Source: Acidimicrobiia bacterium (GTDB taxonomy: Bacteria; Actinomycetota; Acidimicrobiia; Spongiisociales; Spongiisociaceae). Taken from it: 64,000 nt of DNA. The translations under genes were made by a program, and so were the position numbers. The stretch covers positions 1-64,000 of the forward strand of contig WTGI01000084.1 of assembly GCA_011523635.1 (NCBI GenBank), in the 5' to 3' direction. The notes below the pieces were generated by a model. That model saw only the letters and a list, made by a program, of their open reading frames with translations, did no database searches and was not told the origin of the DNA. Shown piece after piece: positions 53,419 through 58,025 of the stretch (position 1 is the first letter of the stretch; each line of letters starts with the position of its first letter).

Positions 53419-53443
53419 AAAGGCCTTCCTCCTCAGGCCTTTT
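53419..53443 (+). terminator. terminator after the aquaporin gene
   Basis: Perfect 8-bp stem AAAGGCCT/AGGCCTTT with an 8-base loop, two bases after the stop codon; the 3' arm runs into TTTT. A second hairpin follows at once (53446). Confidence 0.6.
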
Positions 53444-53445
53444 GA

Positions 53446-53481
53446 GGTACGGGGTCGGTCACCTTCTCCCGGCCCCGTACC
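53446..53481. promoter_or_regulatory. 13-bp hairpin upstream of trpD
   Basis: GGTACGGGGTCGG pairs with CCGGCCCCGTACC (one G-T wobble), ten-base loop, ~95 bases before the trpD start. It may be a second terminator, acting on the opposite strand too, or part of a trpD leader. No Trp-codon leader peptide is evident. Confidence 0.45.
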
Positions 53482-53576
53482 TTCCGCCTCCACGCCATCC
53501 GTCTCCGGCCGGAGTTCTGGATGCCATGCAGATCCCGCCCGGATCGGGAGGACGGACCGCTGATAAGCTTCGCGCC

Positions 53577-54611
53577 ATGACGGAATTCTCCTGGTCGGAG
53601 GTGCTGGGAACGATCTCCCGGGGCGGCGACCTCAACCGCACCCAGGCCCGCCAGGCCATGCGCCAGGTCATGGGCGGACTCGCCTCCCCAGCCCAGATCG
53701 CCGGCCTGATCGTGGCGCTCCGGATGAAGGGAGAGACGGTCGAGGAGATGGGCGGCCTGGTCGACGGCATGGTGGAGGCGGCGGTCCGGGTCGACCTCGG
53801 CGACGCCGACCCCGTGGACATCGTGGGTACCGGAGGCGATCGTTCCGGTACGTTCAACATCTCCACCACCGCCTCCTTTATAGCGGCCGGCGCCGGCATC
53901 CCGATCGCCAAGCACGGCAACCGGTCGATGTCGTCCAAATGCGGCTCGGCGGACGTGCTGGAGGCCCTTGGGGTGATCATCGACCTGCCGGCAGAGAGGA
54001 ACCGCCGGTTGTTCATGGACACGGGCTACGCGTTCTTCCTGGCGCCGGTCTACCACCCGGCCATGCGGTTCGCCGGGCCGGTTCGCAAGGAACTCGGCAT
54101 TCCCACGGTCTTCAACTTCCTGGGACCGTTGAGCAATCCGGCCGGGGTGCGGAAGTACGCGCTAGGGGTGGCTGACGGGCGCATGGCGGAGCGCATGGTC
54201 CGGGTGCTGAGCCTCCGGGGTTCGGAGCGAGCCCTCGTGTTCCACGGCTCGGACGGTTTGGACGAGCTCACCCTGAGCGGTCCTTCCGTGGTCTGGCAGC
54301 TGGACGGAGGCCAGGTGTCCAGAACCGAGGTTTCGCCCCGAGGGGTGGGTCTGGGACCGGCGCCCGTGACCGATCTCCTGGGGGGAACGGCCGAGGTGAA
54401 CGCAGGCATCACCCGCCGTGTTCTGGAAGGCGAACCGGGTCCCTGCCGGGATGTCACGCTGCTGAACGCGGCGGCCGCCATCGCCGCATCCGGCCGTACG
54501 GACGACCTGGCCGAAGCGGTTGCCATAGCCGCCGAGTCGATCGACAGCGGTTCGGCCGGCGAGGTCCTGGACAGGGTGGTGGCGCGGAGCCGGGAACTGG
54601 CCGCGGGCTGA
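53577..54611 (+). CDS. trpD: anthranilate phosphoribosyltransferase
   Basis: 344 residues from ATG 53577. PRPP-binding G-T-G-G-D-R-S-G-T-F-N-I-S-T, anthranilate-site K-H-G-N-R-S-M-S-S-K-C-G-S-A-D, and D-G-L-D-E-L in the Mg-binding region. It joins anthranilate and PRPP in tryptophan biosynthesis. It stands alone without other trp genes, which is common in actinobacteria. Confidence 0.94.
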   Translation: MTEFSWSEVLGTISRGGDLNRTQARQAMRQVMGGLASPAQIAGLIVALRMKGETVEEMGGLVDGMVEAAVRVDLGDADPVDIVGTGGDRSGTFNISTTASFIAAGAGIPIAKHGNRSMSSKCGSADVLEALGVIIDLPAERNRRLFMDTGYAFFLAPVYHPAMRFAGPVRKELGIPTVFNFLGPLSNPAGVRKYALGVADGRMAERMVRVLSLRGSERALVFHGSDGLDELTLSGPSVVWQLDGGQVSRTEVSPRGVGLGPAPVTDLLGGTAEVNAGITRRVLEGEPGPCRDVTLLNAAAAIAASGRTDDLAEAVAIAAESIDSGSAGEVLDRVVARSRELAAG

Positions 54612-54684
54612 TCCCGCCAATTCACCGGAGATCTTCATCCGGATGGCGCACGTTTACATCCGTCCGATGCTTATCATCCCGGAT

Positions 54685-55434
54685 ATGAGAGGTCGCAATC
54701 GAGTGCTGGCCACCGTCCTGGCCGCCGTGGTCGCCGTGGGGGCGTGCGGAGGCGGCTCGGACGAGCAGGCCACACCCGAACCCGCGGAGCCGGCCACCAC
54801 TTCAGCGGTGACTACGGCCGCGACCACTGCTCCCAGCCCCACCGTTTCAGAGGGTACGTCTGCCGAGTCCCCCACGACCACGGCCGCTGCGACTGCCGAG
54901 ACGACCGTGGCAACGGAACCTGCCGCCACTCCGGAGACGACTGCGGTCACGGAAACTACCTCCGCTCCGGAACCCACCGCTGCTCCACAGACGACCGTGG
55001 CAACGGAACCCGCCTTCGTCCCCGAGGGCCCTCCTATCCCGGCGTTGACGCTGGAACTGGACGACGGGACCACCTTCGTCACGACCGAAGCCACCCGGCC
55101 CGTCCTCTACCTGTTCTGGGCGGAGTGGTGACCGTCATGCCGACGGGAGTTACCCGTCGTCGACTCTGTGGCCGCCGAGTACGCCGGCCAGGTGGACGTG
55201 ATCGCGGTCGCCTGGGCATCGACGTACGACAAGACGGCCTCCGCAGCCCGCGGATTCCTGAGCTCGGGGGCCACCCGCTGGTTGCTGGATGAGGACAATT
55301 CGATCTTCGCCGCCTTCGAGGTGACCTACCAGCCGGTCGGAGTGTTCGCGGTGAGTGGTGTCGAGGTCAACCGCTGGTTCGGTTCCATCCCCGAGCAGGA
55401 GTTCCGCCAAGCAATCACGGACGCCCTGGCGTAG
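54685..55434 (+). CDS. thioredoxin-like lipoprotein with in-frame TGA at the CxxC position: candidate selenoprotein
   Basis: Start ATG 54685 gives a lipoprotein signal with lipobox V-G-A-C (Cys21), then a Thr/Ala/Pro-rich linker (22-115) and a TlpA/thioredoxin-like domain (116-249). The frame is interrupted once, by TGA at 55129-55131, and continues in the same frame to TAG 55432. Around it the protein reads L-Y-L-F-W-A-E-W-[TGA]-P-S-C-R-R-E-L-P, so the TGA replaces the first Cys of the classical W-C-x-x-C. The downstream part is a good thioredoxin fold with a cis-Pro loop (T-Y-Q-P-V-G-V). With selenocysteine the protein would have 249 residues. The alternative is a nonsense mutation or base error. 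Probably an envelope thiol/selenol oxidoreductase. Confidence 0.75.
55129..55159 (+). promoter_or_regulatory. SECIS-like hairpin behind the TGA codon
   Basis: Sixteen bases after the TGA the apical loop AGTTA (55148-55152) is closed by a perfect 7-bp stem CGACGGG/CCCGTCG (55141-55147 with 55153-55159). Bacterial SECIS elements need a stem of a few pairs, a small loop with G in its first two positions and 16-37 bases between UGA and loop; all three hold here. Confidence 0.65.
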
Positions 55435-55637: not shown

Positions 55638-58025
55638 CTACAGGGCGGTGGCGATGGTGAGGGTGTAGGTGCCCGTTCCATCCCCGAAGCTGGTCACCTC
55701 GACGTAGTAGGTGCCTGTGCTCGGCGCCAACCAAATGAGCCGGGATGCTGTCGAGTCGCCGTAGTCGTCGTTACCGTCCAGCCATATGCCGTCGGCGTCG
55801 TATAGGTCGAGTACGGAGTCTTGGAGGGTTCCGAGGGTTAGGTCCAGGTCGTAGAACTCCCCCTCTGTGGCTTCGAAGGCGAAGTAGTCGCCGTCGCCCT
55901 CGTATTCCATCTCGCCCTCGACGGCCATGCCTAGCTCGACGGCTGTTGCGTTTGCTGTCGAATTCGGGTGGTCGTCTGTGATGTCCGAGATGGTGATGGT
56001 GAGGGTGTAGGTGCCGGTGCTCGTGTCGAAGCTGGTCACCTCGACGTAGTAGGTGCCTGTGCTCGGCGCCAACCAAATGAGCCGGGACGCTGTCGAGTCG
56101 CCATAGTCGTCGTTGCCGTCCAGCCAGGTGCCGTCGGCGTCGAGTAGCTCGAGTACGGAGTCCTGGAGGGTTCCGAGGGTCACTTCTATGTCGTAGATTT
56201 CGCCCTCTGTGGCTTGGAAGGCGAAGGAGTCAGCGTCGCCTGCGTATTCCAGTTCTCCTTGGTTGGCCACGTCGAGCTCGACGGCTGTTGCGCCGTCTGC
56301 CGAATTCGGGTGGTCGTCTGTGATGTCCGAGACAGTGATGGTCAGGGTGTAGGCGCCGGTGTCGAAGCCGGTGACTTGGACGTAGTAGCTACCCGTGCTC
56401 GGTGCGTACCAGGTTATGTTGTCGTTGCCGGCCTGTCCGGTCAGCCAGTTGCCGTCGGCGTCGAATATGTCCAGTACCGAGTCCTGGAGGGTTCCGAGGG
56501 TTACGTCCAGTTCGTAGAACTCGCCCTCCGTGGCTTCGAAGGTGAAGAAGTCACGATCGTCTGCATACTCCAACTCGCCCTGGAGGGGCGCACTGACCTC
56601 GACGGCTGTTGCGTTTGCTGTCGAATTCGGGTGGTCGTCTGTGATGTCTGAGATGGTGATGGTGAGGGTGTAGGTGCCGGTGCCGGGTCCGAAGCTGGTG
56701 ACTTCGACGTGGTAGGGGCCGGTGCCGGGTGCTTGCCATATGAGCCGCGATGCTGTCGAGTCGCCGTAGTCGTCGTTACCGGCCAGCGGGTGGCCTTCGG
56801 CGTCGTATAGGTCGAGTACGGAGTCTTCGAGGGTTCCGAGCGCGACGTCCAGTTCGTAGTACTCGCCCTCTGTGGCTTCGAAGGTGAAGAAGTCACGATC
56901 GTCCGCGTACTCCAACTCGCCAGGGACAGACACGCCGATCTCAACCGGTGTCGCCTCCCCGAGCAACTCGTCCGAAGGGAGCGCGTCGGCCGCCGACCAC
57001 GCTAGGTCCGGAACGCAGTCGAACAGGCCGGGGAGGAATTCAAAGAGCCCGAGGTCGTCGGCGGAGCCCGTGAGGAGGCTTGTCCAGTCGGTGTCGGTTA
57101 CCCATTCGCGAAGGCAGGATGCTTCCTCCTCGCTGAGGTCTTCGAGGGTCATGCCGGTTTCCTCGAGCATGGACGAGATGAAAATGTCGGGGGCGCATTC
57201 GATCAGATCGGCGGCGAAGCCCATGAGATCGGAGGGGTCGTCGGCGGAGCCGGTGAGGAGGTTCGTCCAGTCGGTGTCGGTTATCCACTCGCGAAGGCAG
57301 GATGCTTCCTCCTCGCTTAGGTCTTCGAGGGTGAGGCCCGTTTCCTCGAGCATGAGCGAGACGATCAGGTCCCGATTGCAGGCCAAGAACGCGGTGGTGA
57401 CATCCCCTGTCACCTCCGTGTCATCAATCGACAGGGCCAGCATGGTGGCAACCACGTCGAGCCCGGCCACCCACTCGGCCAGGCAGGCCTCCGTGTCCGC
57501 GTCCAATTCGAATGCCTCGTCCTCTCCCATTCCTGCGACCATCGTGGAGAGGAATACGGCTTGGGCGGTCTCAGGCGCGAGGCACGAGAAAATCAAGATC
57601 ACCCACGCCTCCGGTGTCTCTGCCTCCGACATGACCGGCAGGGCCAGCACCGACTCCAAGGTGTCGCCATCGAACGTGTCGCGGACACACTCCTGCTCGG
57701 CTCTGGTAAGAGCGTCGAACACGTCTCCCCATTCGGTGTGGGTGTCCACCCGGAGATCGAAGTCCGAGGTGGCTCCGGTCGTATCGGGTAGGACCGTCGT
57801 CGTGCTGCTCGGCGCGGTTGTCGTGCTGCCCGAAGTCGTTGTTGTTGGAGTAGTAGCAGTAGTGCTTGGAGTCGTTGTCGTGCTGCTTTCGGCTGTGGAG
57901 GTTGACTCCGGCGTCGAGTCGCCCCCGCAACCCGCCAGGGCGATGATGACGGCCAGAGCGCCCAATATCGGGATCCAATGGACACGACGAGGCGTCACCG
58001 ATGACTTCGAAAGACCGCTCGGCAT
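55638..58025 (-). CDS. secreted lipoprotein with four Cys-pair helical repeats and four PPC domains
   Basis: 795 residues. Lipobox A-L-A-G-C (Cys33), Ser/Thr-rich linker (34-85), then four helical repeats with Cys pairs 113/148, 181/216, 243/277 and 303/337, spaced 34-35 residues; repeats 3 and 4 share E-E-A-S-C-L-R-E-W and L-L-T-G-S-A-D-D almost exactly. Residues ~355-795 are four bacterial pre-peptidase C-terminal (PPC) beta-sandwich domains of about 105-110 residues (each with G-E-[LM]-E-Y ... L-x-L-G-T-L-x-D-S-V-L). No peptidase domain is present. It is probably an anchored surface binding or scaffold protein. Confidence 0.8.
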   Translation of the reverse strand: MPSGLSKSSVTPRRVHWIPILGALAVIIALAGCGGDSTPESTSTAESSTTTTPSTTATTPTTTTSGSTTTAPSSTTTVLPDTTGATSDFDLRVDTHTEWGDVFDALTRAEQECVRDTFDGDTLESVLALPVMSEAETPEAWVILIFSCLAPETAQAVFLSTMVAGMGEDEAFELDADTEACLAEWVAGLDVVATMLALSIDDTEVTGDVTTAFLACNRDLIVSLMLEETGLTLEDLSEEEASCLREWITDTDWTNLLTGSADDPSDLMGFAADLIECAPDIFISSMLEETGMTLEDLSEEEASCLREWVTDTDWTSLLTGSADDLGLFEFLPGLFDCVPDLAWSAADALPSDELLGEATPVEIGVSVPGELEYADDRDFFTFEATEGEYYELDVALGTLEDSVLDLYDAEGHPLAGNDDYGDSTASRLIWQAPGTGPYHVEVTSFGPGTGTYTLTITISDITDDHPNSTANATAVEVSAPLQGELEYADDRDFFTFEATEGEFYELDVTLGTLQDSVLDIFDADGNWLTGQAGNDNITWYAPSTGSYYVQVTGFDTGAYTLTITVSDITDDHPNSADGATAVELDVANQGELEYAGDADSFAFQATEGEIYDIEVTLGTLQDSVLELLDADGTWLDGNDDYGDSTASRLIWLAPSTGTYYVEVTSFDTSTGTYTLTITISDITDDHPNSTANATAVELGMAVEGEMEYEGDGDYFAFEATEGEFYDLDLTLGTLQDSVLDLYDADGIWLDGNDDYGDSTASRLIWLAPSTGTYYVEVTSFGDGTGTYTLTIATAL
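55640..57000 (-). repeat. four tandem ~320-base repeats encoding PPC domains
   Basis: Long stretches are nearly identical at the DNA level between copies (for example the segments around 55690-55760, 56040-56110 and 56700-56770). Such similarity indicates recent duplication or gene conversion and could complicate assembly of this stretch. Confidence 0.75.

Follow-up and report, generated by a model that had tools for sequence, protein, structure and literature searches.

Does an in-frame TGA codon within a lipoprotein gene of an actinobacterium mark a broken gene, or is it read as selenocysteine (Sec)? The question is raised by one forward-strand frame of the window, the term used here for the whole 64,000-nucleotide stretch of DNA that was analysed. 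From 54685 to 55434 (+) this frame encodes 249 residues, ends with TAG (55432-55434) and is interrupted once, by TGA at 55129-55131 (codon 149). The translation agrees with an earlier note on this DNA, which had described one frame broken only by this TGA and flanked by the residues W-x-P-S-C. The active-site stretch reads FWAEWUPSCRRELPVVD, in which FWAEW-U-PSC is the part that flanks the Sec. Of ten TGA codons in the window that lie between long open stretches and close to a Cys codon, only one is surrounded by a recognisable protein family. It is very probable that the cell’s own SelA, SelB, SelD and tRNA-Sec decode TGA 55129-55131 as Sec through a SECIS hairpin, and that the product is a TlpA/ResA-like lipoprotein reductase.

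Translation, homologues, Pfam and the modelled fold point to a selenoprotein gene for a lipoprotein with a TlpA/ResA-like thioredoxin domain and Sec149. It opens with a signal peptide and the lipobox AVGAC (54685-54747, +), in which the predicted lipidated residue is Cys21 (54745-54747). A lipobox-like motif is found in 89 of the 96 family members, the others being mostly N-masked or cut, and an extracytoplasmic location is predicted from it. The linker that follows (residues 22-112; 54748-55020, +) is rich in Ala, Thr and Pro, variable in length and unconserved among relatives. The remainder, residues 113-249 (55021-55431, +), is a thioredoxin-fold domain according to Pfam, AlphaFold2 and Foldseek. 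It contains the TGA codon as the first position of UxxC and the TGC codon of the resolving cysteine, Cys152 (55138-55140, +), whose column is invariant in the family alignment. There is an alternative in-frame ATG at 54643, 42 bases upstream; cross-species similarity begins at or near the MRGRNR... start.

Both Redoxin (35.4 bits, cut-off 26.6) and Thioredoxin (33.0 bits) match the window protein above their Pfam cut-offs, and AhpC-TSA is also among the families matched. AlphaFold2, supplied with 25 family members, returned a model with a mean pLDDT of 95.7. In this model, the first long helix (38-53) lies at the active-site motif (37-40), and P105, a putative cis-Pro, is invariant. Foldseek gave TM scores of 0.85 for Mycobacterium tuberculosis DsbF and 0.89-0.90 for ResA, and the nearest proteins in a profile search were DsbF, pneumococcal thioredoxin-family lipoproteins, and ResA and its relatives. 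A Glu three residues past Cys152 is nearly invariant in the family; the spacing is that of ResA, where a Glu follows the second Cys by three residues (CEPCKKE). From the motif spacing and the ResA E80Q entries among the structures, we take this residue to sit at the position of the ResA active-site Glu. The family product is predicted to be a lipoprotein with a TlpA/ResA-like thioredoxin domain and the motif WAEWUxxCxxELP. The earlier note had pictured a lipoprotein with a thioredoxin fold, UxxC and a lipobox, and the domain matches, the model and the lipobox counts all agree with it.

The family shares with ResA, CcmG and TlpA (PDB 1st9, 2f9s, 1kng, 1jfu) the fold (TM 0.81-0.90), the place of the active site and the extracytoplasmic location. 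It differs from them in having Sec for the attacking Cys, in an identity of 15-20%, in its lipoprotein anchor and long linker, and in being specific to one order. M. tuberculosis DsbF (3ios) and MPT53 (1lu4), actinobacterial secreted proteins of thioredoxin fold, are among the closest structures by both profile and fold. These have Cys, however, and are 24-29% identical; the likeness drawn here is one of sequence profile and fold.

In a UxxC motif, one residue attacks and the other resolves, as in thioredoxin and the TlpA reductases. The lipoprotein is most likely an extracytoplasmic thiol-disulfide reductase. It would be tethered by its lipid to the membrane’s outer face, carrying its TlpA/ResA-like domain on a flexible linker. 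The selenolate of Sec149 would attack disulfides of extracytoplasmic partners, Cys152 would resolve the resulting selenenylsulfide, and a CcdA/DsbD-type membrane protein may then re-reduce the lipoprotein. Redox direction and partner are both drawn from homologues only. An oxidase, an isomerase or a peroxidase in place of a disulfide reductase is rather unlikely, though Redoxin and AhpC-TSA are among the matched families and the top structural match, DsbF, is an extracytoplasmic disulfide protein of actinobacteria. On the other side, UxxC retains a resolving Cys beside the reactive residue, WAEWxxxC and the Glu that follows match thioredoxin and ResA-type reductases, and a donor is at hand in the one CcdA/DsbD-like protein of the host genome.

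Apocytochrome c or Ccm proteins are candidate partners of the proposed reductase, since the gene adjoins ccm genes in several relatives. In relatives such as those of loci L051 and L073, CcmG-like and CcmI-, CcmH- and CcmF-like proteins are encoded on its other side, convergent with it, and the CcmF motif occurs in 7 of 70 family loci. A CcmF query behind these assignments is approximate over its first dozen residues, and the CcmF domain hits fall well beyond that part. Other relatives have an Lgt-like gene and another TlpA at the convergent side. The neighbour counts were built on open frames, antisense ones included, and trpD, Ccm and Lgt-like genes are those checked by motif or Pfam. The gene trpD (53442-54611, +; assigned by Pfam), which lies outside the selenoprotein gene, is directly upstream of it in 48 family loci. 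In the window, the convergent place is held not by ccm genes but by a PPC-domain lipoprotein. Within the window’s genus, the selenoprotein gene does not stand beside ccm genes; the contig does carry a CcmF-type gene, at a distance of about 48 kb. With ccm genes beside the gene in several relatives and not in the window, a part played close to cytochrome c maturation is possible but weakly supported. The wider proposal is doubtful: that the protein is a dedicated Sec-dependent reductant of extracytoplasmic cytochrome c maturation or a similar envelope pathway, that it is a main reason why these Acidimicrobiia keep the Sec machinery, and that its repeated change to Cys is tied to loss of that machinery. 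Two further loci (L018 and L033) show all or part of the same CcmG-CcmI-CcmH-CcmF-like set, again convergent with the selenoprotein gene. The PPC-domain lipoprotein of the window (55638-58025, -) has repeated PPC (pre-peptidase C-terminal) domains and stands in this position in only some members of the genus.

The host genome is a metagenome-derived draft of 3.15 Mb in 91 contigs, 97% complete. It contains one strong tRNA-Sec gene (77 bits), to which ARAGORN assigns the anticodon tca (tRNA-Sec(UCA)). The gene selA scores 428.9 bits against a cut-off of 267.9, and selB (283 bits) adjoins it, with its start overlapping selA. The selD gene (379.5 bits) has an in-frame TGA of its own at the usual Sec site, FSPGGGUASK; a simple fold of selD gave no clean SECIS-like hairpin of the lipoprotein-gene type. 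With tRNA-Sec, selA, selB and selD all present, the genes for which the earlier note had proposed a search, the cell is equipped for reading UGA as Sec. Two different tRNA-Sec-like genes (about 72 and 55 bits) were seen in each of four other genomes (G016, G036, G050 and G055).

Bacterial SECIS elements have a small apical loop containing G and stand right after the UGA (PMC1088965). Beginning 9 nt after the TGA, at 55141-55159 (+), the lipoprotein gene has a hairpin with the stem CGACGGG/CCCGTCG and the loop AGTTA, which is kept in 78 distinct sequences with the loop AGTTA/G. The codons of the stem change in pairs across these 78: Arg CGA goes with Val GTC, Gln CAR with Val GTT, and Leu CTA with Val GTA, and sequences whose protein reads ARELPLL have the stem GCAAGGG with CCCTTGC. 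In a set of 34 sequences, 87.4% of the cells of the stem pair, against 40-66% in slid controls, and changes on both sides account for 19 cells, against 6.3 in shuffles, with none of 500 shuffles reaching 19. Redrawing synonymous codons in the 78 sequences lowers the mean number of stem pairs from 6.32 of 7 to 4.36 +/- 0.11. For the loop Leu, 70 of the 78 use TTR (TTA or TTG), against 12 expected, although CTG and CTC dominate elsewhere. The Cys homologues have CTG, CTC or ATG as the loop codon, and their stem is disrupted. In about 40% of sequences, the outermost pair of the stem does not form. Folded by itself, a single 55-base sequence around the TGA does not exceed shuffles in stability (z -0.99), so that the support for the hairpin comes entirely from comparison between sequences. 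The conserved hairpin fits a bacterial SECIS on compensatory changes, the synonymous-codon null and decay in the Cys homologues.

Decoding of UGA as Sec competes with termination. It could be supposed that the main product is a truncated lipoprotein lacking the domain, with Sec readthrough in high selenium only, and one report puts recoding in vivo at 30-40% and dependent on selenium (PMC4513850). Such a regulated switch is very unlikely here, as the N-terminal half shows no sign of a conserved function and conservation lies in the domain, on both sides of the TGA. Comparison instead argues for UGA 55129-55131 being decoded as Sec by the SelA/SelB/SelD/tRNA-Sec of the cell, directed by the SECIS 9 bases downstream.

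Conservation of the codon itself was followed in two ways. Nearly all close relatives in the order have a best homologue with a single in-frame stop; it is a TGA and falls at one and the same alignment position, down to about 35-40% protein identity, which excludes a single nonsense mutation or sequencing error. A motif scan for FWAEW-TGA-xx-C over 84,980 species found 115 DNA stretches, 80 of which were listed. Most of these 80 belong to this lipoprotein family; nearly all come from metagenome-assembled genomes (MAGs) that carry the name Acidimicrobiia or Actinomycetota, and a few from ones called Acidobacteria or only “bacterium”; the actinobacterial source proposed in the earlier note is in keeping with these names. 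The closest named relative among the matches listed is the MAG RHO1_bin_64, with a 99% identical protein; its bin name suggests a sponge as source, so the window probably derives from a sponge-associated member.

In a census of 296 genomes of the class Acidimicrobiia, each at least 90% complete, matches to the family profile above 100 bits occurred in the window’s own order only, whose members are mostly uncultured. A close homologue was present in 66 genomes, with TGA at the Sec codon (55129-55131, +, in the window) in 61 and a Cys codon, TGC, in the other five (G041, G140, G159, G196 and G163). The downstream half of the frame is under protein-level conservation, while the linker varies freely. 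A pseudogene, or an error of sequencing or assembly at codon 149, might be suspected from a TGA that breaks the frame in a metagenome-derived draft of 91 contigs; this is refuted, with hardly any probability left to it, by the same TGA in 61 genomes of many genera and independent assemblies and by the conserved downstream half. The earlier note had likewise judged a chance nonsense mutation improbable, and relatives keep the TGA rather than decaying after it. A genome-wide reading of TGA as a sense codon, for example Trp as in table 4, is chemically possible after WAEW and is almost certainly wrong: TGA is also an ordinary stop, ending trpD and several members of the selenoprotein family, the homologues carry Cys and not Trp at this position, and tRNA-Sec, SelA, SelB, SelD and a hairpin after the TGA are all present.

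Decoding of codon 149 as Sec is strongly supported by these comparisons and by the distribution of the machinery. A tRNA-Sec was found in 57 of the 61 TGA-form genomes and SelB in the other four (G039, G167, G193 and G194), so that every one shows signs of Sec decoding. Four of the Cys-form genomes (G041, G140, G159 and G196) have neither tRNA-Sec nor SelB, and the association between machinery and codon form is significant (61 TGA against 5 Cys genomes; Fisher’s exact p = 6.9e-6). Homologues thus do carry Cys at this codon, mostly in genomes that have lost the Sec machinery. The fifth, G163 (locus L182), is an exception that counts against the link: it keeps both tRNA-Sec and SelB with its Cys form, although neither is present in G140 and G159 of its genus. 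A Cys form in a Sec-competent genome is a possible intermediate. In the family tree, which was built on few columns and read at well supported forks alone, many forks being weak, the Cys forms are nested within the Sec family at several places. This fits repeated change from Sec to Cys. The Cys forms, mostly in genomes without SelB and tRNA-Sec and with decayed hairpins, amount to a natural experiment from which one can measure what a SECIS within a coding region costs in sequence.

The earlier note had offered a new selenoprotein, and this stands for the subfamily and not for the kind, because earlier work already lists selenoproteins of the UxxC TlpA/Redoxin-like type (PMC13188914, PMC1088965, PMC2398784). 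Their prediction dates from 2005-2008 (PMC1088965, PMC2398784), and Table 1 of PMC13188914 includes UxxC entries for a “thiol-disulfide isomerase-like protein” (cd02966), a “Redoxin family protein” (PF08534) and a Prx-like protein (PF00578). The cd02966 and PF08534 selenoproteins are alike in their TlpA/Redoxin-type domain, UxxC and bacterial SECIS after the TGA. The present proteins are set apart from them, going by descriptions, as an order-wide lipoprotein subfamily with Sec in nearly all members and the signature FWAEWUxxC[RQK]RELPV. No NCBIfam model reaches its cut-off with the window protein. The ResA-like WAxxUGC family (NF041054, WAxxUGC_long) and the Rcas_1661 thioredoxin-like (seleno)lipoprotein (NF041057) also have a Sec-containing thioredoxin fold, the latter in a lipoprotein; the window protein scores 24.7 bits against a cut-off of 300 for the first, having UPSC and not UGC, and 15 against 190 for the second. 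A full-text literature search returned no report linking selenoproteins with Acidimicrobiia in substance. The family is apparently a new, order-wide, undescribed subfamily of the already predicted UxxC TlpA/Redoxin selenoproteins, and it would add a well supported, apparently unannotated group to Acidimicrobiia, whose gene is cut or split at the TGA by gene finders.

Other apparent Sec-containing genes were seen alongside this family. Tandem Sec-containing paralogues of the lipoprotein, two or three side by side, occur at five loci (L059, L060, L080, L087 and L109), and genus g34 shows the same pattern in the class census. Three Acidimicrobiales loci (L066, L071 and L113) encode an apparent selenoprotein that is short, thioredoxin-like and marked by VWFWAEWUxxCRAE. 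A second selenoprotein candidate lies in the same genome as the window gene (L175; G000:C32:37854-37877, -), in which a Redoxin domain containing WAEWUPTC comes after S-layer-homology (SLH) repeats; a strong hairpin follows its TGA, and homologues occur in L052, L061, L093, L103 and L120.
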